From contig CALPQA020000026.1 of NCBI GenBank assembly GCA_943325595.2, positions 1 through 10,683 of the forward strand: a stretch of DNA of 10,683 nt. Reading direction: 5' to 3'. The DNA is from Auritidibacter sp. Marseille-P8566 (GTDB lineage Bacteria; Bacteroidota; Bacteroidia; Flavobacteriales; Flavobacteriaceae). The notes under the pieces are model-generated. The model had not been told where the DNA came from. It was given only the letters and a program-made list of their open reading frames with translations, and made no database searches. Position numbers and translations under genes: made by a program. Positions 208 to 10,492 of the stretch are shown one piece after another; position 1 is the first letter of the stretch; every line of letters begins with the position of its first letter.

Positions 208-963
208 ATGGCAAGACAGAAAGGCATAATTAAATTGAAAGGTACTATAGGAGATATTACTTTTTACAAAACGCAAGACGGGCATTTGGCTCGTGAAAAA
301 GGCGGAATCGATGCCAGTCGAATCAAAAACGATCCTGCGTTTCAAAGAACCCGTGAGAACGGTTCGGAGTTTGGGAGAGCTGGTAAAGCAGGAAAGATTT
401 TGAGAACTGCTTTGAGAGCATTGCTTTTGAATTCTGCTGACGGTAGAATGGTAAGCCGTTTAACTCAAAAAATGGTTCAAGTTATCCAAGCTGATTTAAT
501 CAGCGTTAGAGGATTGCGAAATGTTATTGATGGTGAAGCCGAACTTTTAGCAGGTTTTGAATTCAATATCCGTGGGAAACTGGGCACCAGTTTATTTGCT
601 CCTTTTGTGGGAGTAATTGACCGTGTTACAGGAAACATTACAGTTGATTTGGCTTCATTTATTCCTGCCAATATGATTGCTGCACCAAGTGGAACAACTC
701 ACTTTAAAATTATTTCTGCTGGTGCGGAAGTCGATTTTGAAGCGGAAACATTTGTTGAAGCGCATTCAGAAACGGCAATTTTACCTTGGGACACAACCGC
801 TACGGCTGTAATTAGTCAAACAAATGCTGTAACTCCAGCCAGTACAAAACCTTTGTTTTTGGCTCTTGGAGTTGAGTTTTACCAAGAAGTAAATGGTCAA
901 ATGTACCCATTGAAAAATGGCGCGTTTAATCCATTAGCATTGGTGCAAGTGAGCGGATTGTAA
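208..963 (+). CDS. conserved hypothetical protein, 251 aa, first gene of a phage-like cassette
   Basis: I cannot assign a function. The protein resembles a hypothetical family I associate with flavobacterial accessory regions, but I give no family name. Residues 1-70 are basic and rich in Lys/Arg/Gly (MARQKGIIKLKGTIGD and an REKGG motif at 29-33). Residues 75-115 look helical. From about 115 to the end the sequence is beta-rich with hydrophobic alternation. There is no signal peptide or membrane segment, so it is probably cytoplasmic or part of a particle. The gene stops one base before the next start, so it is almost certainly co-transcribed with the DUF5675 gene. Its base composition is visibly less AT-rich than the genes beyond 3989, which fits horizontal acquisition. 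A phage structural or accessory role is a guess from the neighbours. Confidence 0.85.
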   Translation: MARQKGIIKLKGTIGDITFYKTQDGHLAREKGGIDASRIKNDPAFQRTRENGSEFGRAGKAGKILRTALRALLLNSADGRMVSRLTQKMVQVIQADLISVRGLRNVIDGEAELLAGFEFNIRGKLGTSLFAPFVGVIDRVTGNITVDLASFIPANMIAAPSGTTHFKIISAGAEVDFEAETFVEAHSETAILPWDTTATAVISQTNAVTPASTKPLFLALGVEFYQEVNGQMYPLKNGAFNPLALVQVSGL

Positions 964-964
964 G

Positions 965-1360
965 ATGGTTTTAAGACTATTGAGAACTTATTTCCCTGAT
1001 GGAACGAACGGAAAAATCGAATGCGAAGGCAAATTGATTTGTAAAACCATTGAATTGCCGTGGAAGATGAACGAAACGAAAGTTTCCTGCATTCCGGAAG
1101 GGAAATATTTTATAAAAAAGCGGTACAGCAAGAAATTTCAATGGCATTTGGAAATAATTAATGTAAAAAATAGAAGTTTAATTCTGTTTCATCCTGCCAA
1201 TAATGCTTTGCAAGAATTGAATGGTTGTATTGCTCCAGTAACAAAACTTTCTGGACCTGGTTTAGGTCTTATGTCTCGAAAAGCATTTTCTAAATTGAAA
1301 AATATAGTCAATCCAATTTTAGACAAAAATGGAAGTGTTGTTTTAATTGTTCAATCTTAA
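965..1360 (+). CDS. DUF5675 family protein, 131 aa
   Basis: This is recognised as DUF5675, a small single-domain family found in phages and in phage-derived regions of Bacteroidota genomes. Its exact reaction is not established to my knowledge. Features seen are the N-terminal strand with TYFPDGTNGKIECEGKLIC (residues 8-26), the PEGKY turn (44-48), and the core LILFHPANNALQELNGCI (72-89), where H76, N79/N80, G87 and C88 are the likely conserved positions. A further loop, GLGLMSRKAF (99-108), resembles the SR segment of the family. The length is normal for the family. One base separates its ATG from the stop of the preceding gene, and 9 nt separate it from the following one, so it sits inside an operon. 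The small membrane proteins downstream make a role at the cell wall plausible, by analogy with lysis cassettes; that is inference. Confidence 0.85.
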   Translation: MVLRLLRTYFPDGTNGKIECEGKLICKTIELPWKMNETKVSCIPEGKYFIKKRYSKKFQWHLEIINVKNRSLILFHPANNALQELNGCIAPVTKLSGPGLGLMSRKAFSKLKNIVNPILDKNGSVVLIVQS

Positions 1361-1369
1361 AATAAGATT

Positions 1370-1597
1370 ATGAAAAAAATAATAAATAGAGCGAAAGCTC
1401 CAACTCCGAAATTTTTTAAAGTGCTTCGAAATATTGGTTTGGCATTAGCTGCTGTAGGCGGAACAATTTTGGCAGCGCCAGTTGCTTTGCCAGTTGTAAT
1501 TACTACAATTGGCGGTTATGTAGCCGTTGCAGGTGGCGTTATTTCGGCGGTTAGCCAATTGACAACCACAACCGAAAAAGCCGATGCAACACAGTAA
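1370..1597 (+). CDS. small membrane protein, 75 aa, possibly holin-like
   Basis: I do not recognise a named family. A basic N-terminus (MKKIINRAKAPTPKFFKVLR) is followed by a hydrophobic, Ala/Gly/Val-rich stretch, about residues 22-62. It can form one long or two short membrane helices, with a Pro-Val turn near residues 37-42. The tail is polar and Thr-rich (TTTTEKADATQ). A short protein with positive charge inside and one or two glycine-rich helices directly after a DUF5675 gene is the layout expected of a holin or other phage-type membrane partner, but no motif proves this. The gene starts 9 nt after the DUF5675 stop, and its last 14 nt overlap the next gene. Confidence 0.75.
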   Translation: MKKIINRAKAPTPKFFKVLRNIGLALAAVGGTILAAPVALPVVITTIGGYVAVAGGVISAVSQLTTTTEKADATQ

Positions 1598-1760
1598 TTC
1601 AACTGTAATTGGTACCGCTGGTGGTACATTTTTGAGTGTTTTACCGAATTTACATTCGGAAGATGTTTTAAAAACTATAATTCTTGCCACACTTGGTGCA
1701 GTTGTTAGTTTTTCAATATCTTTGATTCTCAAATTTTTCATTAGAAAGCACAAAAAATAG
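1584..1760 (+). CDS. small membrane protein, 58 aa, overlapping the preceding gene
   Basis: An ATG at 1584 opens a 58-codon frame ending with TAG at 1758-1760. It overlaps the 75-aa gene by 14 nt in another frame, which suggests translational coupling. The N-terminal 30 residues are polar to neutral (MQHSNSTVIGTAGG...). Residues about 31-53 form one hydrophobic membrane helix (TIILATLGAVVSFSISLILK), and the protein ends in a strongly basic tail (RKHKK). That topology, one helix with a positive C-terminus, suits a small inner-membrane protein such as a holin or antiholin-type partner. It is the last gene of the operon: a strong terminator follows 42 nt after the stop codon. It is below the length cut-offs of many gene finders, so it is easily missed. 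Confidence 0.65.
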   Translation: MQHSNSTVIGTAGGTFLSVLPNLHSEDVLKTIILATLGAVVSFSISLILKFFIRKHKK

Positions 1761-1843: not shown

Positions 1844-2023
1844 TTAAACTTCTTCAAATAGATTCAGCGTAACTTCTAAAACCACAACTTCGGAATTATG
1901 GTTATACAATTCTTGCCATTTTGCACTGTCAATAGCTTTGGCTCTGGTGTCGAAAACGCCAAAACATACTCTTGATGCTCTGCTTTTCCAATTGTCGGTC
2001 TGATACAAAATAAATAATTTCAT
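1844..2023 (-). CDS. small conserved hypothetical protein, 59 aa
   Basis: The minus-strand frame starts with ATG at 2023-2021 and ends with TAA at 1846-1844. The protein begins MKLFILYQTDNWKSRASRV, continues with a VFDTRAKAID segment and a helix (SAKWQELYNH), and ends with a hydrophobic-acidic strand (EVVVLEVTLNLFEEV). A beta-alpha-beta layout of a small soluble protein fits this pattern. I do not recognise a named family. It lies 29 nt downstream of the 155-aa gene on the same strand and is probably co-transcribed with it. Clean alternation of hydrophobic and polar residues, a normal start codon and the small gap to its neighbour support it as a real gene despite its length. Confidence 0.68.
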   Translation of the reverse strand: MKLFILYQTDNWKSRASRVCFGVFDTRAKAIDSAKWQELYNHNSEVVVLEVTLNLFEEV

Positions 2024-2052: not shown

Positions 2053-2520
2053 TTATCGTTTGCAATAGCGATACAAAATCACTCTACGCAAATCGTTTAT
2101 GAGGTTGATATTTTCGTGAAATTGTTTCTCTTTTTGCTCCAAAAGTTTGAGCGCAGTTATATTTTTTTGATGTTCTTCGTGTTCCTGCATCATCAAACTA
2201 GCTTTTGGATTGAATTCTTTTGAGAAATCTGGAAGACGTAAAAATGGAATTACTGAACCCACTAAATGCGGATGCCAGAATTTTGTTTGCCATAAGCTGT
2301 AAGCCACAAAATAAATGCTTTCACAATCTATTTCGTTTTGAAAAATGACCACAAAACTGTTCGTAAATGGCTCTTTTTGTGGTTTTCCGCTGTTCATTCC
2401 TTTGTTAAGTACAAAGAAGTGCGGTTTTGAATAAATCGAGTTTTTTTGGTGGGTTTTAATGATAAAATTGAGCATACTTTCTGATTTAAAGTTGAGGTTT
2501 TCAATTCCTTTTTTTGCCAT
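2053..2520 (-). CDS. DUF6943-like hypothetical protein, 155 aa
   Basis: From memory this resembles the Bacteroidota family DUF6943, whose function is unknown; a profile search has not been done. Recognisable parts are FIIKTHQKNSIYSKPHFFVLNKG (about residues 19-41), a KPQKEPFTNSFVVIF strand, the aromatic YSLWQTKFWHPHLVGSVIPFLRL segment (74-96), and a charged C-terminal helix ending RRVILYRYCKR. There is no signal peptide or membrane helix. Family similarity seems to begin near residue 17, so Met16 is an alternative start. I keep the upstream ATG because it is preceded by an A-rich leader typical of this group. The gene is first of a two-gene minus-strand unit with the 59-aa gene and converges with the DUF5675 operon. 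A purine tract and hairpin-rich DNA lie just upstream. Confidence 0.8.
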   Translation of the reverse strand: MAKKGIENLNFKSESMLNFIIKTHQKNSIYSKPHFFVLNKGMNSGKPQKEPFTNSFVVIFQNEIDCESIYFVAYSLWQTKFWHPHLVGSVIPFLRLPDFSKEFNPKASLMMQEHEEHQKNITALKLLEQKEKQFHENINLINDLRRVILYRYCKR

Positions 2521-2548
2521 TAAATTTTTGAAAAGAAAAAAAAGAAAA

Positions 2549-2763
2549 AAAAAGAAAGTCGTCTATCAAGTGGAGGTTTCAAGAAAAGCAAGTTTTTTCA
2601 AAAAAATACTACCCGGCTTTTTAAGATAAAGTTCTACGGAATTGGAGTTTTGATTTTAATCAAATGTTGAAGCGAGAACAAAACGTAGGGTGGAGATTTT
2701 ATTGAAAACCGTAGGCTTGAACTTTCTTTTCTTGAAACTGGAACTTACCTTTACTTTCTTTTT
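2549..2763. repeat. hairpin A: long inverted repeat with two paired blocks
   Basis: The inner block is GTTTCAAGAAAAGCAAGTT (2576-2594) against 2720-2738: 18 of 19 bp pair, with one C-T mismatch. The outer block is AAAAAGAAAGT (2549-2559) against ACTTTCTTTTT (2753-2763), 11 bp perfect, at the edge of a purine tract (2529-2558) and a matching pyrimidine tract (to about 2782). Internal loops of 16 and 14 nt separate the blocks. The 125-nt interior contains a further small palindrome, TTGATTTTAATCAA. Confidence 0.7.
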
Positions 2764-2848
2764 ATTTATTTTTTTATTTTTCTTGCTGCCGATAAGTTTC
2801 TTATGAAATGAGATCCAAAAAATGTTGTTTAGAAAGAAGGAGTTCTTT

Positions 2849-2935
2849 AGAAAGGGTATGAATTTTTAAAACAGAAAAAAAAAGATAAAATTCCATTCCG
2901 ATTATTTTTCTGTTTTGAAAATTCGTACTCTTTCT
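2849..2935 (+). repeat. hairpin B: 31-bp stem
   Basis: Arms 2849-2879 and 2905-2935 are complementary over 31 bp around a 25-nt loop. Twenty-eight pairs are Watson-Crick. The three exceptions, at stem positions 7, 11 and 19, are all G-T on the + strand. It is the longest stem in the region and is far beyond chance. It has no T-tract of its own and no neighbouring gene to terminate, so a simple terminator role is unlikely. Confidence 0.8.
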
Positions 2936-2944
2936 TACGGTTGA

Positions 2945-3026
2945 TTTTGTGGGTGTAAAAAATTGCTTTATCGGTATTGTGAATTTTAGAAGTGAAGTTG
3001 TAAAGCAATTTTTTACACTTACAAAA
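2945..3026 (+). repeat. hairpin C: 26-bp stem, first copy of a two-copy family
   Basis: Arms 2945-2970 and 3001-3026 pair over 26 bp around a 30-nt loop. The outer part reads TTTTGTGGGTGT on the left and ACACTTACAAAA on the right. The only two non-Watson-Crick pairs are adjacent G-T pairs (GG opposite TT). The inner 18 bp (2953-2970 with 3001-3018) are perfect. The flank after the right arm (ACAAAAACAATG) recurs after hairpin F. Confidence 0.8.
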
Positions 3027-3185
3027 ACAATGAAAAAACTTACCTAGTGAGTTGGCAGAAGCTCAAAGCAAGTGTGTGGTTTTTTATTTGCTTACTGGGG
3101 TGTTTCTGATTGTTTTTATGATGGCTTGATGCCACAAACGCTCCTGCAATTATTAGGTTCTCGGTAATCAAAGAATGTGCTATGA

Positions 3186-3221
3186 AATTGTTATGGCATC
3201 TTGGCCATCGTGAAAACAATT
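3186..3221 (+). repeat. hairpin E: bulged 12-bp stem
   Basis: AATTGTT (3186-3192) pairs with AACAATT (3215-3221), and ATGGC (3193-3197) pairs with GCCAT (3204-3208). The loop is 6 nt, and there is a one-sided 6-nt bulge (3209-3214). It is weaker than its neighbours but falls in the same array. Confidence 0.5.
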
Positions 3222-3272
3222 ACTTCTTATTCTATGGCAAATAAAAAAGCACACTTTTGCTGGCATTTTTTG

Positions 3273-3352
3273 TTTTGTGGGTGTCAAAAATAGCATATTC
3301 AAAAGTTTTTGTTTGAGGAAAGTGTTCCTTGCTATTTTTGGCACTTACAAAA
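3273..3352 (+). repeat. hairpin F: 23-bp stem, second copy of the family of hairpin C
   Basis: Arms 3273-3295 and 3330-3352 pair over 23 bp around a 34-nt loop. Three G-T pairs and no other mismatch occur. The outer TTTTGTGGGTGT and CACTTACAAAA segments and the following CAATG are shared with hairpin C, 328 nt upstream. The inner stem and the loop differ, yet pairing is kept. Confidence 0.78.
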
Positions 3353-3396
3353 GCAATGCAAACACTACCGATTTATACACAACGCTGATAAAACAA

Positions 3397-3425
3397 TTGT
3401 AAAGTTCTTGCGAAAGATATATTTG
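3397..3425 (+). promoter_or_regulatory. candidate promoter reading into hairpins G-H-I
   Basis: TTG at 3397-3399, an 18-nt spacer and a perfect TAnnTTTG element, TATATTTG, at 3418-3425 match the Bacteroidota primary promoter consensus. Transcription would start near 3432, only a few bases before an ATG at 3439 and 28 nt before hairpin G. No convincing protein gene follows, so an RNA product is the likelier target. Confidence 0.5.
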
Positions 3426-3459
3426 TAAATTTAAGAAAATGTTGTTCGGAATTTTGAAA

Positions 3460-3539
3460 GTGGTTTGCGAAGGACGGTTTTTTGAGCGGCTGGGTGATGC
3501 GATGGGAGCTGCTCAAAAAGTTGTCCTGGAGCAAACCAC
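3460..3539 (+). repeat. hairpin G: interrupted stem with three adjacent G-T pairs
   Basis: The left arm 3460-3487 and right arm 3511-3539 pair as GTGGTTTGC with GCAAACCAC (9 bp), a small 2/3-nt internal loop (GA opposite GGA), then AGGAC with GTCCT, then GGT opposite GTT (three G-T pairs), then TTTTTGAGC with GCTCAAAAA. The loop is 23 nt and G-rich (3488-3510). It is noticeably less AT-rich than the other hairpins. Confidence 0.75.
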
Positions 3540-3558
3540 AAGCGCGTTGGGTGTGGCG

Positions 3559-3654
3559 GCTGTTTTACATAACGTTATTATAGGGCAACGAAATACAATT
3601 TTTCAAATTAAGACGACTTTTGTTGCCCTATAATGCCACGTTATGTAACACAGC
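3559..3654 (+). repeat. hairpin H: long palindromic element, attC-like in outline
   Basis: The left arm 3559-3593 and right arm 3618-3654 pair over about 34 bp. The outer block GCTGTTTTACATAACGT has one T-C mismatch. A one-sided bulge follows (T on the left, GCC on the right), then ATTATAGGGCAAC with GTTGCCCTATAAT, perfect over 13 bp, then a G-T pair and three A-T pairs. The loop is 24 nt (3594-3617). Two stem blocks separated by unequal unpaired bases resemble the folded form of integron attC sites, though the outer ACATAAC/GTTATGT pair misses the RYYYAAC/GTTRRRY consensus by one base on each side. Confidence 0.75.
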
Positions 3655-3661
3655 TTGGGGG

Positions 3662-3729
3662 AAAAAATTACTGGCGCAAGTTGCAAAGCGTACGTGTTTT
3701 TTCTAAAAACTGTGCCAGTAATTTTTTTT
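3662..3729 (+). terminator. hairpin I: A-tract/T-tract hairpin, possible terminator
   Basis: AAAAAATTACTGGCGC (3662-3677) pairs with 3712-3727 over 16 bp with one G-T pair. The right arm ends in eight T residues (3722-3729). The A-tract on one side and T-tract on the other are typical of intrinsic terminators, but the 34-nt loop is long for one. It is the last strong hairpin of the array and would end a transcript from the promoter at 3397-3425. Confidence 0.5.
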
Positions 3730-3934
3730 AGAGCGTTGGCAAAGGAGTGACAATTGAAATGTAAAACGTCTTTCTTAATTGCCAAACGAGATTTTTTTAT
3801 TGAAATACTTTTTAAGATATTATGTAATTAAATAGTAGTATCTTAAATAATTAGGTATAAACTTATGTTTATTAAATAGTTCAATATTTTTATTAATAAT
3901 TTTAAACGAATAAAAAAATTATCTAACAACAGAA

Positions 3935-3972
3935 TTGCAATAGAATTGGATTTTAATTTTGAATTCAAAATT
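3935..3972 (+). promoter_or_regulatory. promoter with overlapping 18-bp palindrome ahead of the T9SS cargo gene
   Basis: A perfect TAnnTTTG element, TAATTTTG, lies at 3954-3961. A TTG at 3935-3937 is 16 nt upstream, slightly short of the usual spacing. Overlapping it is a perfect palindrome, AATTTTGAATTCAAAATT, at 3955-3972, centred on GAATTC, with a partial repeat (AAAATTCAAATTTT) after it. It ends 16 nt before the start codon. The position would suit a dimeric repressor that blocks RNA polymerase, but AT-rich DNA also yields such palindromes by chance. Confidence 0.4.
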
Positions 3973-3988
3973 CAAATTTTTATTATAA

Positions 3989-5218
3989 ATGAAAACTATT
4001 TTACTCATTGCTTTTACAATTATAACATTAAATACCAATGCTCAAATCAAAATTTTGTTCGATGCAACTAAAGCTGAAAGTGCAGGAAATGCAGATTGGG
4101 TTATTGATGCTGATACTCATAATATAGGATTTTCATCTGGACCAGCAATTATTGGAAGTGGTACGGAAAGTAATCCGCAAAGAATACCAACACCTTTACA
4201 ATCTAATATTACATCATCAACACTAGAGAATTATTGGAATGGTGGTTTGTCTAATTGGGCGATTGATTGTGTAAAACAAGGCTATCTAGTGGAAAGTTTA
4301 CCCTATAATGGTCAAATTACTTATGGAATAACTTCAAATGTGCAAGATTTGAGCAATTATAAAGTGTTTGTAATTGATGAACCAAATATCTCATTTACAG
4401 CATCTGAAAAAACTGCTATTATAACTTTTGTTCAGAACGGTGGCGGTTTATGTATAATTTCCGATCATACTATATCTGATAGAAATAATGATGGTGTAGA
4501 TTCACCACAGGTTTTAAATGATTTGATGAGTAACAACACCATCCAAAATAATCCGTTTGGAATTACTTTTGATTATGCAAATTTTTCTCAAACTTCATCT
4601 AATGTTGCGACGCTGCCAAGCAATACTGTTTTACACGGAACAGCTGGAAATGTTACACAAGTGAAATGGTCAAATGGGACCTCAATGACTTTAAATCCTA
4701 CTCAAAATATTAGTGTAACTGGATTGGTTTACAAAACAGGTTCAAGTACAAATATGATAACAAATGTTATGTGCGCTTCAGCAACCTATCAAAATGGAAA
4801 AGTAATTGCTATTGGAGATAGTTCCATACCGGATGATGGGACTGGAGATATTGGTGATACTCTTTATAATGGTTACATTGCTGATGCAAGTGGAAATCAT
4901 CAACGATTGCTAATGAATGCAATTATTTGGTTAGCTACTACAAGCCCGTTGAGTATTGAAAGCTCTAGTTTTTTAAATAATAGTTTTGTTATTGCACCTA
5001 ATCCTATATTGAATAAAGAATTGAAATTTAATTATTTGAATCCCGAAAATGAACTTACAAAAATTGAAATTTTTGATGCATTAGGTAGAACTGTAAAAAT
5101 TGCTTTACTGTTAAATAGCGAAAATTCAATTGCTTTAAATGAGCTAAATTCTGGAGTTTATTTGTGCAAAATATCAAATGCTAACCATTCTAAAAGTATG
5201 CGATTTGTAATTAATTAA
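3989..5218 (+). CDS. secreted protein with GATase/DUF4350-like domain and T9SS type A sorting domain, 409 aa
   Basis: A Sec signal peptide spans residues 1-18 (MKTILLIAFTIITLNTNA, cleavage before Gln19). The central part, about 20-320, starts with a strand and the segment FDATKAESAGNADWVIDAD (24-42). It then shows VFVIDEPN (127-133), a glycine-rich NGGGLCIISDHT turn (150-161) and a late KVIAIGDSSIPDDGTGD segment (271-287). This layout resembles class I glutamine-amidotransferase-like or DUF4350-type folds that may bind sugars or act as hydrolases; no catalytic triad could be assigned. The C-terminus, about 325-409, is a type A sorting domain: APNP at 336-339, KIEIFDALGRTVK (358-370), ELNSGVYLCKI (385-395) and a final SKSMRFVIN. 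The protein should therefore cross the outer membrane through the type IX system and be released or anchored at the surface. The downstream DUF6134 gene follows after 11 nt. Confidence 0.88.
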   Translation: MKTILLIAFTIITLNTNAQIKILFDATKAESAGNADWVIDADTHNIGFSSGPAIIGSGTESNPQRIPTPLQSNITSSTLENYWNGGLSNWAIDCVKQGYLVESLPYNGQITYGITSNVQDLSNYKVFVIDEPNISFTASEKTAIITFVQNGGGLCIISDHTISDRNNDGVDSPQVLNDLMSNNTIQNNPFGITFDYANFSQTSSNVATLPSNTVLHGTAGNVTQVKWSNGTSMTLNPTQNISVTGLVYKTGSSTNMITNVMCASATYQNGKVIAIGDSSIPDDGTGDIGDTLYNGYIADASGNHQRLLMNAIIWLATTSPLSIESSSFLNNSFVIAPNPILNKELKFNYLNPENELTKIEIFDALGRTVKIALLLNSENSIALNELNSGVYLCKISNANHSKSMRFVIN

Positions 5219-5909: not shown

Positions 5910-8414
5910 TTAAAATGTTGTTTTTAGACCAACTCTAATTCCGAATTTTGGATTTACAGATCCATTAAAATTTTGAAAATCACTTCGCCAAATAAAATCT
6001 AATCTAAACGGTCTTACATTTCCATAACCAATGTTTTCAAAGCCAAAACCATATTCATAATAAAGTTTTGTTGGCGCAACATATAATATTGAAGATTGGT
6101 TTATTTCTTTACTACCATTAGAAATCGTTCCATAAACACCTCTAAAAGTAACTAAACTACGCCAGCTTAACTTTTTTATAATTGGAATTTTATTCATTAA
6201 AAAGCCATTAAAATGATGCTCAAAATGACCTTCTACATAAGTGTCAGCAACAAAATCATAATAATCTAACAACGCAAAAGTATTGGGTAATAAAAAATAA
6301 GTTTGATTAGAAGAAACTGCTGTAAGTATTGATAACGGTGTGGGTTCAAATGTTTTACCAGCACCAATTGTAGCGTCAAAAATACCAAATTTACCCAATG
6401 AAATAGGATTGTTATATAAAACTTGTAATCGATTGTAGTTAAAGTTACCTCCAAATACATTTTTATAACCTCGTTTGTAATTGAACATAAATGTAGGATG
6501 TAATTTGATACCTTGTTTTTCATCAACACCAAAACCTGAAACTTCTTTTCCTGGTGTATAAGTCAAATACAAATCAGATGTTAAATCGGTAGTTTCAGAT
6601 TTTATTTGCCCAGTATTAGTATCTAAATAATCTAGTGAAAATCTATTTGGAGCTGCTGATTTGATTATATTATGGGTAAGAGTTAGACCAAGATGTAAAT
6701 TTTTTGACGGTTCTACATCAAACCGAAACATACTTTTTTGAATTTTAGAAAGAAAGAAATTCTGACCTCTGTTAAACAATGCTTTCGAACCTTTGTCAGC
6801 TTCGGGCAAAAGATGAATACCATTAAATTGTGTCAAACCCATTTGTTCGTTATCTTTCAAAAACGCAGCACTTATGGTAGTTCTGGGAGTATTTGAAAGT
6901 AAATATCTAGCTTCTAAACCGTATTTAGTTATTTTATCTTTGCGACCATAAGCAGTAAATCCTTCTACTCTAAAACGATCATCTTCTGAAATAAATGTTC
7001 TAAAACCAAATCGCAATCGCAATCCTTCAATTTGATTTCTTGCTGCCGTTGTCCAAATATTACCAGTTTGAAACCCTTTGAATAGCGGAATATAACCGTC
7101 TGAAAGTATGTAAATAGTTCCAGTAACCGCTTTTATTTTTTTGCTATCTTTAATTACATTTACAAGTTTATATAAGTTTTTAGTTTCTTCATCTTGTTTC
7201 ATACTCCAATAAATGCTGTCTTTTTCAAACTGATTAGCATCTATTTGTTGCATTTGCGTATTATAAAAATCAGCTTCTTTTGGAATATTAAGTATGTAGT
7301 TACTAAACATTTCTTTTTTAACAACATATGCACCTTTTTCTTTTTCATCTTTTGTTAGTAGTGTGAAATCTCCTTTGTATTCATTTAATAATGGTAAGTA
7401 AATACTATCGCTTTGAATTGTAAATGTTTTTGTTAATTCAAAATTTCTAACGAAATTTAAATTCATTTTTCTAGGAGTTCGCATTTCAATTTCTGTTAAT
7501 GCAAAATTTTTAGTATCAACGGTAAAACTCCCTCTAAAAGCAAAGTCTCTGGGTTCTCTAGGAAAAAATCGAATGGTATATTGTTTTTTATCAGCTACAA
7601 ATGTACTGTCGGTTAGTTCATAATCGTAGGTTCCAAAACCTTCAGATGAAATTGGGCTTACAAAATTTTTATTTAAAATTGTTATGTTGTTTTGATATAC
7701 ATCTATCTCTTGAAATGTATTTGCAATATTTTCGAATATTTTTCCTTCTTGTTTAATACCAATAGTTCTTTCTCCATCAATATCTATTCGTTCCTTGTTT
7801 ATAATATTGTTTCCATATATTTTCTCATTTCTTTCAACTAATTCAATTGGAACATAAAATTTATTGTCAATATTGGTTTTCATTTTTAATGCAATACTAT
7901 CAAAATCTTTTTTTAATGCTTTTTTGACAAATGCAGTATCTAAATTGTCAATCCCTAATTCTACTGTTGAATATTTTTCATACTCATAGGTTTTAGAAAG
8001 CTTTAATCCGTTTTGCTTTTTGTTTTTCCAGATATTTTCTAGAATTTTATAAGCTGGGTTTTCTTTCTTTTTTAATCGTATTTTTGATCTAGATTTTACA
8101 ATAACTTCGTTTAGTGTTGAAGCTTGTTCTTTTAGTGCAATAGTTAAGTTATTGGTATATTGATTTTCGAGATGAATTATTTTATTTTCAAATCCCATAC
8201 AACTAATAGTAATATCAGAATAATGGTTGTTTGATTTTAATGTAAAAGCCCCAGCAGAATTGGTTAATGTACCTTCGGTTGAACCTAAAAATAGTATATT
8301 GGCATTAGCGATAGGCTTGTTTTTTTCATCTGTAAGATTGCCTTTTACACTGGTTTGACTTGACATAAAGTTAGAAATTAATAGAAAACCAAAAAAGATA
8401 TTGTTGGTTTTCAT
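5910..8414 (-). other. DUF5686 / carboxypeptidase-regulatory-like outer-membrane module, 834 aa with its own start
   Basis: From the internal ATG (8414-8412) the protein begins MKTNNIFFGFLLISNFMSSQ, a convincing Sec signal peptide. Next comes a CarboxypepD_reg-like beta-sandwich, about module residues 21-105 (VKGNLTDEKNKPIANANI, TNSAGAFTL, ISCMGFENK, LNEVIVKS), as found at the N-terminus of many Bacteroidota outer-membrane proteins. A basic linker (KIRLKKKENPAYKILENIW) leads into the DUF5686 region, which fills the rest. Its last 350 residues consist of alternating strands with many Tyr/Phe and glycine turns, ending FGIRVGLKTTF. The terminal Phe and this pattern indicate an outer-membrane beta-barrel. 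The substrate of the family is unknown. I consider this start the likeliest biological start of the DUF5686 protein. Confidence 0.75.
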
Positions 8415-9248
8415 TATTATAACTTTGGATTTTACTTTATGTTTTGAGCATTTATCTTTTTCAACAAATGGTCTTACAATTAGCTTTTTGAAACTCTCGT
8501 TATCTTCACGAATCATATTGGTATCTACACCACAAATAATCTCGGATTGTTTTAATTGATGAAATGTAGAAAATAATTGATCCCATATTGTAAGCACATC
8601 GCCAAAATTACTATCTGTATAAGGCAATTGATAATGGTGATGAATATGATGCGTGTTTGGTGTAACAAAAACTTTAGATATAATATCGTTTACTCTTTTA
8701 GGAAGCTTGGTTTTAGAATGTGAAATAATATTAGATGCACTTTGAATAAATTGTTTAAAAATAAGTACCCAAGGTGTAGCACCAACAAGGCAAATTACCA
8801 AAATTGAATAACTTACTCTTATAAATGTTTCCCCAGGATGTTCTCTAACTGTAGTTGAAATATCTACATCTAAATCACTATGATGAACTTGATGAAATTT
8901 CCAAAATATTGGTGTTTTGTGCATCATAAAATGATACAAATAATCAAATAAGTCAAGAATCACAAAAGCAATTATAAAAAACAGAAATGAGTTTTTTGAA
9001 ATAGGTAGTAAAAACATAACTCCCCACTGTTTAACCTCAATAAAATTGGAAGCAAACAATACCAGAATTGATAATGAAAATTGAACTGGAACTACAAAAA
9101 ACAAAAACTTTGCATTTAGAAAAGTATGTGTAAGTTTGGTTTTTATATTTTGAGAGAAAATAAAAAATTCTAAAACCCAAAAAAACACCAATACGCAAAT
9201 GAACAGTAAAATTTGAAATTCAAAGATATGATTAAGAAAATGTACCAT
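5910..9248 (-). CDS. continuous frame joining a sterol desaturase/fatty-acid hydroxylase domain to a DUF5686 outer-membrane protein, 1112 aa
   Basis: The frame runs without a stop from ATG at 9248 to TAA at 5910. Residues 1-278 form a membrane di-iron hydroxylase. Residues 279-1112 begin with a new Met and a signal peptide and form a complete DUF5686 protein with a CarboxypepD_reg-like domain. These families are normally separate genes. A protein that crosses the inner membrane several times and then must export 800 residues to the outer membrane would be very unusual. I therefore suspect two adjacent genes whose intervening stop was lost by mutation or by a sequencing error. In the other two frames TAA codons occur at several points in the 35 nt before the internal ATG at 8414, so a one-base shift would restore a normal end. 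Two module entries give details. The upstream region is shared with the divergent PAP2 gene. Confidence 0.82.
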   Translation of the reverse strand: MVHFLNHIFEFQILLFICVLVFFWVLEFFIFSQNIKTKLTHTFLNAKFLFFVVPVQFSLSILVLFASNFIEVKQWGVMFLLPISKNSFLFFIIAFVILDLFDYLYHFMMHKTPIFWKFHQVHHSDLDVDISTTVREHPGETFIRVSYSILVICLVGATPWVLIFKQFIQSASNIISHSKTKLPKRVNDIISKVFVTPNTHHIHHHYQLPYTDSNFGDVLTIWDQLFSTFHQLKQSEIICGVDTNMIREDNESFKKLIVRPFVEKDKCSKHKVKSKVIIMKTNNIFFGFLLISNFMSSQTSVKGNLTDEKNKPIANANILFLGSTEGTLTNSAGAFTLKSNNHYSDITISCMGFENKIIHLENQYTNNLTIALKEQASTLNEVIVKSRSKIRLKKKENPAYKILENIWKNKKQNGLKLSKTYEYEKYSTVELGIDNLDTAFVKKALKKDFDSIALKMKTNIDNKFYVPIELVERNEKIYGNNIINKERIDIDGERTIGIKQEGKIFENIANTFQEIDVYQNNITILNKNFVSPISSEGFGTYDYELTDSTFVADKKQYTIRFFPREPRDFAFRGSFTVDTKNFALTEIEMRTPRKMNLNFVRNFELTKTFTIQSDSIYLPLLNEYKGDFTLLTKDEKEKGAYVVKKEMFSNYILNIPKEADFYNTQMQQIDANQFEKDSIYWSMKQDEETKNLYKLVNVIKDSKKIKAVTGTIYILSDGYIPLFKGFQTGNIWTTAARNQIEGLRLRFGFRTFISEDDRFRVEGFTAYGRKDKITKYGLEARYLLSNTPRTTISAAFLKDNEQMGLTQFNGIHLLPEADKGSKALFNRGQNFFLSKIQKSMFRFDVEPSKNLHLGLTLTHNIIKSAAPNRFSLDYLDTNTGQIKSETTDLTSDLYLTYTPGKEVSGFGVDEKQGIKLHPTFMFNYKRGYKNVFGGNFNYNRLQVLYNNPISLGKFGIFDATIGAGKTFEPTPLSILTAVSSNQTYFLLPNTFALLDYYDFVADTYVEGHFEHHFNGFLMNKIPIIKKLSWRSLVTFRGVYGTISNGSKEINQSSILYVAPTKLYYEYGFGFENIGYGNVRPFRLDFIWRSDFQNFNGSVNPKFGIRVGLKTTF
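8415..9248 (-). other. sterol desaturase / fatty-acid hydroxylase superfamily module, residues 1-278
   Basis: An integral-membrane di-iron oxygenase of the FA_hydroxylase family, expected to hydroxylate or desaturate a lipid in the inner membrane. Hydrophobic segments lie at about residues 8-31, 47-70, 78-100 and 144-168. The histidine clusters are intact: H106-x3-H110 (HFMMH), H119-x2-H122-H123 (HQVHH), H137 in REHPGE, and H201-x2-H204-H205 (NTHHIHHHY). The C-terminal part, TIWDQLFSTFHQL (220-232), is also typical of the family. The length to residue about 260 is normal for a complete family member, which supports an original stop near residue 270-278. The substrate cannot be read from the sequence; sterols, carotenoids and fatty acids are all possible for the superfamily. 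Confidence 0.83.
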
Positions 9249-9275
9249 CTTATTGCGTTTTAATTAATATTACTA

Positions 9276-9302
9276 CAATAGTAGGCTTTCATTCTACCTC
9301 AA
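9276..9302 (-). promoter_or_regulatory. weak candidate promoter for the minus-strand hydroxylase/DUF5686 frame
   Basis: On the minus strand TTG (9302-9300) and TACTATTG (9283-9276) are separated by 16 nt. The -7 element differs from TAnnTTTG at one base and the spacing is short. The start codon lies 27 nt further on. The tandem repeats at 9305-9330 abut its upstream side. Confidence 0.3.
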
Positions 9303-9304
9303 TT

Positions 9305-9330
9305 CTATCTGAAATCTATCTGAAATCTAT
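9305..9330. repeat. 11-bp tandem direct repeat in the divergent promoter region
   Basis: CTATCTGAAAT occurs at 9305-9315 and again at 9316-9326, followed by CTAT at 9327-9330. This gives about 2.4 perfect copies of an 11-bp unit, one per helical turn. Direct repeats with 10-11 bp spacing are the usual form of binding sites for OmpR/PhoB-type response regulators, and a response regulator gene begins at 10572. The link is inference. Confidence 0.6.
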
Positions 9331-9448
9331 TGTTTCATTTTAAAATTCAGAATACTAATACTATCTTACTAACCATAGAATTAAAATAGATTTTGTTTAT
9401 AAAATTGCATCAAAATTATTTTCAATTAAATTACATACGACATAGAAA

Positions 9449-10492
9449 ATGAGAAATCATAAATTAAATTGTATTTTTAAATTTTTGTTTGATAAAAACA
9501 CAAGAACAAGAAAAATTGTGATTATAATTTCATTTATTTTATGCTATTCAAATATAAAAGCCCAAGAAAAAGATACCATTACAAAACCAATTATAGAAAA
9601 TTTAAACTATCAACAGTTTAGAATAAATGATAATTTAACGTATCAATATTCAAAACCTAAATTCTTTGATTTCATTACAAAAGTGCCACACGATTTTGGT
9701 CTAATGGGAAATTTGCTGATACAAAAAAATAACTTAATTTGGTTTGGTGTATCAGTTGGAACTACTGCTGTATTACTTCCGATTGACCAACAAATAATAA
9801 ACGGTTCGAGAGATTTTGGGCAACAAATAGGATTGCAAGAAAATCATACCTATTCAGGACCTTTAAAAATGTTTCCTAAAAATATAAATTCTGGAATTTA
9901 TAGAGTTGGAAACGGATTTACAGCACTTTTAGTTGGTGGAGGATTATTGGTTTATGGTTTGTCTAATGATGATTATAGAGCGATACATACCTCAAGTGAA
10001 TTGATGGAAGGATTGATTGCTTCTGGATTGTTAGTACAACCAATAAAACGAATTACAGGTCGTGAAAGTCCATTTATTGCAGAGCAAAATGGAAATAAAG
10101 GTGGCGATTGGAATTTCTTTCCTTCGTTTACCGCTTATCAAAAAAATACTCCATATTATGATGCAATGCCTTCGGGACATATTACAACATTAATGACAAC
10201 AATAATGATACTTTCTGAAAATTATAAAGAAGTAAAATGGATACAACCAGTTGGTTTTGGACTAATTGGATTAATGGGTTTTGAAATGTTGCAAAGTAAA
10301 GTGCATTGGATTTCGGATTATCCAATCGCCATTTTTATGGGATATATAATTGGAAAAAGCATTGTTAAATCAAGGATTACAGAAATAAAAAACAATAAAG
10401 TTGGAGTTTTAAAAACGTTTCAGCCGAAGTTTCATTATTCCTTTAATTCAAATCAAAATTATACATTAGCAAGAGTAAATATGGTTTTTTAA
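9449..10492 (+). CDS. exported PAP2 superfamily phosphatase, 347 aa
   Basis: A lipid-phosphatase-type membrane enzyme. Residues 22-38 form a signal peptide or N-terminal helix (KIVIIISFILCYSNIKA) after an unusually long basic N-region. Further hydrophobic segments lie at about 96-112, 157-172, 186-197, 264-280 and 291-305. The three PAP2 motifs are present in order. Motif 1 is KRITGRESP (200-208). Motif 2 is AMPSGH (239-244), with H244 as acid/base. Motif 3 is KVHWISD (284-290), with H286 as the nucleophile and D290. The Arg normally six residues before the motif 3 His is Met280 here, a variation I believe occurs in some Bacteroidota homologues. Such enzymes remove phosphate from membrane lipids such as undecaprenyl or lipid A phosphates. 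The gene is divergent from the hydroxylase/DUF5686 frame and lies 79 nt upstream of a response regulator on the same strand. Confidence 0.88.
   Translation: MRNHKLNCIFKFLFDKNTRTRKIVIIISFILCYSNIKAQEKDTITKPIIENLNYQQFRINDNLTYQYSKPKFFDFITKVPHDFGLMGNLLIQKNNLIWFGVSVGTTAVLLPIDQQIINGSRDFGQQIGLQENHTYSGPLKMFPKNINSGIYRVGNGFTALLVGGGLLVYGLSNDDYRAIHTSSELMEGLIASGLLVQPIKRITGRESPFIAEQNGNKGGDWNFFPSFTAYQKNTPYYDAMPSGHITTLMTTIMILSENYKEVKWIQPVGFGLIGLMGFEMLQSKVHWISDYPIAIFMGYIIGKSIVKSRITEIKNNKVGVLKTFQPKFHYSFNSNQNYTLARVNMVF

Follow-up and report, generated by a model that had tools for sequence, protein, structure and literature searches.

Positions 2525–3735 of a 10,683-nucleotide stretch of DNA from Auritidibacter sp. 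Marseille-P8566 (Flavobacteriaceae; contig CALPQA020000026.1), here called the window, are predicted to encode on the + strand a non-coding RNA of ~1.2 kb with eight hairpin domains (A, B, C, D/E, F, G, H and I). Together with a divergently oriented gene for a DUF6943 protein, this predicted RNA would be a core component of an integrative mobile element found in Bacteroidota. In the reading that we favour, to which we give a probability of about 60%, the RNA would work in its folded form and the DUF6943 protein would bind it to make a ribonucleoprotein (RNP), which may serve the element in maintenance, in the control of transfer, or by controlling or assisting the defence cargo next to it. The parts of this reading differ in strength. 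Selection on a folded + strand is, from the sequence comparisons, close to certain. It is also highly probable that the region acts as an RNA and, to the same degree, that a mobile element bears it, while DUF6943 as the partner of the RNA is a tentative assignment, somewhat short of an even chance.

Strand asymmetry and folding of the hairpin array

Inverted repeats fill positions 2530–3727 of the window, a region without a convincing gene. With a strand-neutral stem finder, which penalises G-T and A-C mismatches equally, we found 11 stems with 223 Watson-Crick pairs, 18 G-T mismatches, no A-C mismatch and nine others, compared to a mean of 0.2 stems in shuffled sequence (30 mononucleotide shuffles, three for each of 10 of the 45 homologous regions described below, window included). 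A preliminary description of this DNA had counted 13 G-T and no A-C mismatches; the one-sidedness stands and the number was a slight undercount. The composition of the window (fG*fT/(fA*fC) = 1.64) would by itself lead to ~62% G-T, and 18 out of 18 has a p-value of 1.9e-4, given independent mismatches. The + strand of positions 2840–3735 has a folding energy of -338.4 kcal/mol (z = -18.7), compared to -247.0 kcal/mol (z = -11.9) for the - strand (20 dinucleotide shuffles each).

The preliminary description had placed hairpins B, C, F, G, H and I correctly, A turned out to be a nested long helix, and the hairpin E of that description proved to be a competing local stem, now superseded by a larger domain D/E (Table 1). 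It had also called C and F related, and they do share direct repeats (D1 and D3). As a separate observation, the motif GCGTTGG is found at the junctions at 3544–3550 and 3733–3739 and might be a repeated binding site; it occurs exactly twice in 30 of the 45 arrays (range 0 to 4), compared to 0.04 times per array in mononucleotide shuffles.

Conservation and covariation among homologous regions

A genome scan with the DUF6943 protein gave 97 relatives, from which 80 loci (numbered with the prefix L), mostly from Flavobacterium, were kept. At 44 of them, the array DNA is conserved beside DUF6943, with 61–81% identity to the window over ~2525–3735, and the array is found across genera; with the window, these make up the 45 full-length regions that our chosen cut-offs define as class I. 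In these regions, the neutral finder counted 468 G-T, 27 A-C and 435 other mismatches, a ratio of 17 to 1 where base composition over the 45 regions predicts a G-T excess of 1.3 to 2.3 to 1; as the rows are related, binomial values are indicative only. G-T mismatches outnumber A-C in each of the eight domains (Table 1; 11 G-T and 6 A-C were unassigned). The bias is weakest in domain A and, taken over all regions, amounts to 107 G-T vs 14 A-C when counted by distinct position. The remaining 36 loci, some of them very short, were tallied separately (110 G-T and 24 A-C), and control DNA from 1900–3200 bases downstream at 70 loci, much of it coding, gave 21 G-T vs 15 A-C.

The alignment of the 45 regions was folded with RNAalifold, which gave -174.4 kcal/mol on the + strand and -101.1 kcal/mol on the - strand. 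By domain, the + strand folded better everywhere but in the linker, and only barely so in A and H. Two-sided changes were found in 113 of the 286 pairs predicted in the domains (counted after removal of short rows and of columns in which gaps exceed one half), with strong support in A, B, D/E, G and H; the structures were predicted from the same alignments, which tilts the comparison with slid versions of them in their favour. The proposal of selection on a folded + strand, which the preliminary description had made from the window, is borne out by these changes and by the homologues, where A-C is far from being as frequent as G-T.

Domain G was examined in a separate alignment (44 rows with the window, L049 left out), in which 99.1% of the cells are paired and 18 of the 27 pairs have two-sided changes. 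None of 500 shuffles reached any of these measures, and slid versions gave at most nine pairs. Three adjacent pairs remain G.U or U.G in 36–39 of the 42 distinct rows, and the GCGA loop is invariant.

There is no open reading frame (ORF) common to the 45 homologues, the best-covered position lying within an ORF of at least 50 amino acids (aa) in 25 of them, and 107 of the 1197 indel runs are a multiple of three in length. The 1.2 kb aligns as a single unit, which leaves an identity of the hairpins with decayed transposon ends, also raised in the preliminary description, unsupported. At one locus (L034), an insertion between the equivalents of window positions 3050 and 3053 splits the RNA region; it has a 333-aa ORF that presumably resembles a transposase.

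A second conserved region, of ~850 bases (class II), lies at the same place upstream of DUF6943 at 16 loci without class I similarity (L025, L056, L058, L060, L063, L067, L068, L070, L071, L073–L078 and L080). RNAalifold gave -304.9 on the + strand vs -257.2 on the - strand for these 16 loci, and 38 of 182 pairs had two-sided changes. The neutral finder, at a lower cut-off, counted 30 G-T vs 18 A-C, so that the strand evidence is weaker for class II; four related loci gave 15 G-T vs 2 A-C. Class II also has very conserved stretches, and at several loci (such as L060, L063, L077 and L080), similar 40-base stretches lie close to both ends.

Distribution and association with DUF6943

The distribution of the RNA was searched with a covariance model of domain G only. 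In 199 genomes drawn from the genus to which G001 (the F. luteum genome that contains locus L001) belongs, 77 copies were found in 48 genomes, with up to five per genome, and among 299 genomes drawn from the family there were three with the domain, G001 itself being one. DUF6943 was present in 66 of the 199 genomes of the same genus draw, including all 48 that bear the RNA. An oppositely oriented DUF6943 gene lies within 6 kb, in the expected place and at a median of 1004 bases, for 72 of the 77 copies, and no adjacent DUF6943 was found for the other five (the six weakest rows of the DUF6943 genome search were left out of this count).

In a sample of the phylum, DUF6943 was found in 17 of 395 genomes (15 above the cut-off), corresponding to 26 places, from which 20 loci were taken and 17 matched in the stem analysis. 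At six loci with DUF6943 proteins 31–40% identical to that of the window (L158–L163), there were 4–9 upstream stems with 11 G-T and one A-C, counted with a less strict stem cut-off and no shuffle control; a seventh divergent locus (26% identical) had two upstream stems only. The RNA loci L112–L145 were left out of further analysis.

Putative mobile element and defence cargo

Five loci were extended (L146–L150), and three of these (L146, L147 and L150) look like integrative elements of 13–17 kb, in the order integrase, 251-aa protein, DUF5675 protein, DUF6943, RNA, cargo and a right-hand set made of an ATPase-like ORF, an ORF of 286 to 311 aa, a helix-turn-helix (HTH) ORF and an RteC-like ORF. 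Pfam confirmed the integrase, HTH_17 and RteC in L146 only (10 ORFs scanned), and look-alike ORFs were used for L147 and L150; the L146 integrase is a tyrosine integrase with arm-binding and SAM-like domains. The right-hand RteC/HTH set was not evident in L148 and L149. In the window, the core cassette and the RNA are followed directly by other genes, and L012 has the same right-hand neighbour; our interpretation of the window copy is that the right part of the element has been lost or is separated from the rest.

The cargo of L146 includes a set for a cyclic oligonucleotide-based antiphage signalling system (CBASS; phospholipase effector, cyclase, E2, CapP and CapH-like proteins) as well as NADAR and PRTase-CE proteins. 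More generally, 79 ORFs to the right of the RNA, from 42 of the 44 loci (one or two per locus, the nearest with 150–1300 aa within 3.6 kb), matched 249 PADLOC families at E<=1e-10, compared to five families, each in one ORF, for 78 random ORFs from 13 regions, one per genome in 13 host genomes; these figures count families and not proteins, as one protein may match many models, and a few of the cargo sets nearly duplicate one another. Among 25 of the 68 Pfam names in the cargo are Schlafen AlbA_2, UvrD helicase, AbiEii, TOTE primase, Eco57I and Abi_2, together with ordinary metabolic families.

Some further observations concern the right flank of the RNA. A second conserved motif of ~85 bases, AGCGAAATGAAGCAAAC...GGAATACTTGGAC...TGAATGAGATAATG in the reverse-complement view, was found in 23 copies at 22 loci (including L001, L013 and L030), ends at the point where the loci diverge, and has a small stem in which, by eye, one pair is C-G in 14 copies, T-A in seven and a mismatch in two. 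At L002, L016, L044, L046, L050 and L062, it is more than 1 kb further to the right and separated from the RNA by genes, and it was not seen in the shown right flank of the window. Short ORFs of 93–100 aa, which we take to resemble the N-terminal RuvC-I part of Cas9, lie to the right of the RNA at L004, L016, L050, L062, L064 and L072.

Evaluation of the favoured reading and its alternatives

Several results weigh against the favoured reading. Since DUF6943 served to retrieve the 80 loci, only the search that gave the 77 copies tests the link from the RNA side, and nearness does not equal binding; the AlphaFold model of DUF6943 is weak (predicted local distance difference test, pLDDT, 70) and gives no hint of RNA binding. 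As to the element, the integrase was found by tblastn at 15 of the 61 loci having at least 5 kb of left flank, no convincing att direct repeats were found in the five extended regions, and neither an integrase nor RteC is visible in the window, which begins 207 bases to the left of the 251-aa gene. As to the RNA, we envisage a single transcript through all of the domains, but its ends are approximate, since a Bacteroidota promoter pattern was close to the 5′ end at none of the 45 loci, and some homologues lack the T run that follows hairpin I, which makes the 3′ end uncertain. The two-sided changes in C, F and I are weak compared to the slid control, and the linker (3362–3452) lacks covariation support (3 of 13 pairs). 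Finally, the folding energy of the - strand comes close to that of the + strand in domains A (-100.3 vs -102.5) and H (-45.5 vs -47.4).

The last point, together with the position of the array directly upstream of the DUF6943 start, would fit a reading of the - strand as a long structured 5′ leader of DUF6943. On that strand, however, the 468 G-T mismatches would become A-C and the whole array folds worse, which makes such a leader very improbable; a - strand role for A alone could still be envisaged, as its bias is the weakest. That the array consists of functionless palindromes decaying under a strand-biased mutation is scarcely credible. C-to-T changes could by themselves give the bias, as the preliminary description had pointed out, but such a decay is unable to produce two-sided changes in 113 of 286 pairs or to keep the same three G.U pairs, and the array is conserved across genera while the neighbouring DNA of 70 loci lacks a comparable bias (21 vs 15). 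Selection on the + strand might instead act on single-stranded DNA, with the hairpins having a role in transfer, rolling-circle replication or recombination, like oriT or attC. Folded single-stranded sites are known from integrons and conjugation, some copies of the array lie on elements with integrase and RteC, and G.T pairs are tolerated in DNA too, so that covariation and G-T bias alone cannot separate it from RNA. To our knowledge, however, these sites are short, whereas 1.2 kb with 286 predicted pairs is conserved here; the three adjacent G.U/U.G pairs and the invariant GCGA loop are RNA-like, and the extended regions yielded no att repeat. We regard a DNA element as improbable.

It is also conceivable that the transcript works without DUF6943, as a self-assembling ornate RNA like GOLLD and ROOL, a decoy or a scaffold, and that the two are neighbours merely because both are core genes of the element. 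The large multi-domain architecture, the repeated modules (C and F; the GCGTTGG junctions), the invariant GCGA loop and the five copies without an adjacent DUF6943 are consistent with this, and PMC12286853 describes RNA-only complexes of GOLLD, ROOL and OLE. Against it, DUF6943 adjoins nearly all of the 77 copies, and beside divergent DUF6943 genes the same place is taken by other structured regions. We hold an RNA-only assembly to be unlikely, although it deserves serious attention, and prefer the RNP of RNA and DUF6943. A broader version of this preferred reading is more speculative, and we would not expect it to hold in full: a new class of RNA of more than 1 kb, with at least two sequence classes (I, and II of ~850 nt), may form an RNP or an RNA cage with DUF6943 as core machinery of a widespread, defence-carrying integrative element of Bacteroidota, and may act in maintenance, transfer or anti-phage defence.

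Comparison with known RNAs and elements

The array has the general characteristics of a large structured bacterial non-coding RNA, namely many covarying helices, no conserved ORF and one strand, and the family appears, from the searches below, to be a new member of this known kind. At the gathering score, Rfam 15 had no match in the window, L001, L013, L030, L048, L058, L061, L063, L065, L079 or positions 6000–9500 of L111, and a permissive scan of 2400–3990 gave 43 sub-threshold matches, none of them to GOLLD, ROOL or OLE and none usable. A group I or group II intron, or another catalogued RNA family, was rejected on the lack of an Rfam match. A type III toxin-antitoxin RNA, expected to have short tandem repeats immediately before a toxin gene, was likewise set aside, as a repeat search of 2300–4100 gave two-copy direct repeats only, in a search made without a dedicated tandem-repeat finder. 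Literature searches on large RNAs, Flavobacterium and RteC islands showed no recognised description, and one on DUF6943 found it in none of 5.39 million papers, most subscription papers and preprints being outside their reach; the preliminary description likewise knew of no described element of this form.

Like GOLLD and ROOL, which PMC12286853 describes as large multi-domain structured bacterial RNAs on mobile DNA, the predicted RNA is large and built of many domains. It differs from them in having no Rfam match, no tRNA genes (none in six loci scanned) and no match of its DNA in 50,697 phage records or in plasmid records, and in lying near DUF6943, in some cases on islands with integrase and RteC. 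Neither DUF6943 nor the 251-aa protein had a close relative in IMG/VR. The DUF5675 protein of the core cassette, however, belongs to a family that also occurs in phages (74 phage records) and that came up in two phage papers, which weighs against a clean separation from GOLLD and ROOL, RNAs of phages or prophages that often lie close to tRNA islands. OLE is also a large structured RNA and acts as an RNP (PMC9723947 and PMC10898510). The array differs in being without an Rfam match, in occurring in Bacteroidota and not in Gram-positive bacteria, and in its probable place on a mobile element. The RNAs of F. psychrophilum termed Rfp are structured Flavobacterium RNAs, some of them conserved in the genus, but are typically short (median 176 bp), according to PMC9723704.

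With the RteC-type integrative elements of Bacteroidota, the relatives studied here share the tyrosine integrase, HTH_17 protein and RteC seen in L146, and they differ in carrying the large RNA, DUF6943 and the cassette of the 251-aa and DUF5675 proteins. We take RteC-type elements to be CTnDOT-like, and know of no large RNA, DUF6943 or 251-aa/DUF5675 cassette in CTnDOT.

In PMC12286853, the ROOL example is 659 nt, many GOLLD RNAs exceed 800 nt, and the functions of GOLLD, ROOL and OLE are called poorly understood. The predicted RNA would be larger than these three, the best-studied bacterial RNAs of such size, with strong covariation; genomes of cultured environmental bacteria contain several copies of it, a single small protein family adjoins it, and defence genes are adjacent. 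A candidate protein partner, a mobile element and cultivable hosts may thus provide handles for asking what giant bacterial RNAs do.

The core cassette and other features of the window

Among the 80 loci, the neighbours include DUF6943 in 79 (by ORF clustering), a 67-aa ORF in 53 and an integrase in 15. The DUF6943 start was set at a conserved Met, residue 15 of the listed ORF, by alignment, and a sequence search of PDB with DUF6943 gave a lone chance-level match, a myosin (E=0.063).

Table 1. Positions of the predicted RNA, its domains and the core cassette genes in the window. G-T/A-C, mismatches in the 45 class I regions; two-sided, predicted pairs with two-sided changes.
Feature	Position	Strand	G-T/A-C	Two-sided	Remarks
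251-aa core protein (MARQKG...)	208..963	+			relatives in 66/80 loci
DUF5675 core protein	965..1360	+			PF18925, E=2.2e-32; relatives in 70/80 loci
Small hydrophobic ORF, core cassette	1370..1597	+			like the ORF after DUF5675 in L147, L067, L071, L075
Small hydrophobic ORF (58 aa), core cassette	1584..1760	+			relatives in 33/80 loci
59-aa ORF, core cassette	1844..2023	-			relatives in 35/80 loci
DUF6943 gene	2053..2478	-			divergent from the RNA; Pfam PF22105, E=9.1e-57
Predicted large structured RNA (class I), domains A to I	2525..3735 (approximate ends)	+	468/27	113/286	44 other loci, covariation, G.U asymmetry
Domain A, nested long helix	2530..2782	+	42/13	19/69	arms 2530-2559/2753-2782 and 2576-2594/2720-2738, continuing inward
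Domain B hairpin	2849..2935	+	83/2	20/30	3 G.T in the window
Domain C hairpin	2941..3030	+	55/0	8/15	partial repeat in F (direct repeats D1, D3); no better than slid control by cells
Domain D/E	3067..3261	+	113/4	17/56	3067-3091/3237-3261 enclosing 3109-3125/3204-3220; supersedes earlier E (3186-3221)
Domain F hairpin	3273..3352	+	73/2	12/29	repeat of C; slid control 14 pairs, fewer cells
Domain G hairpin	3460..3540	+	57/0	19/32 (18/27 in separate alignment)	invariant GCGA in loop; conserved G.U/U.G pairs; 99.1% of cells paired; 0/500 shuffles
Domain H hairpin	3559..3654	+	19/0	8/29	
Domain I hairpin	3662..3727	+	15/0	7/13	followed by T run; weak compared to slid control
Conserved block GAGCGTTGGCAAAGGAGTGACAATTG	3731..3756	+			after hairpin I; similar block after hairpin I in the homologues shown

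The 251-aa protein had 6944 relatives at E<=0.001 among 7999 candidates scored, and the 120 homologues listed were 88–98% identical. It had no phage match, one plasmid match and no solved-structure relative by sequence, and its predicted fold (pLDDT 84.5) matched nothing in PDB or among viral models at E<=0.001, so that its candidacy as a virion protein is unsupported. On a Marivirga plasmid, from another taxonomic order (L111, 3325–9262), an integrase, a small ORF, the 251-aa protein and DUF5675 are followed by 2.4 kb without listed genes; this locus was rejected as a homologue, with only five stems (2 G-T, 0 A-C) in 6300–9700 and no DUF6943 found. Further right in the window, at 5910–9248, a 1112-aa ORF combines a fatty acid hydroxylase domain with a CarboxypepD_reg/DUF5686 protein and is possibly a gene fusion.

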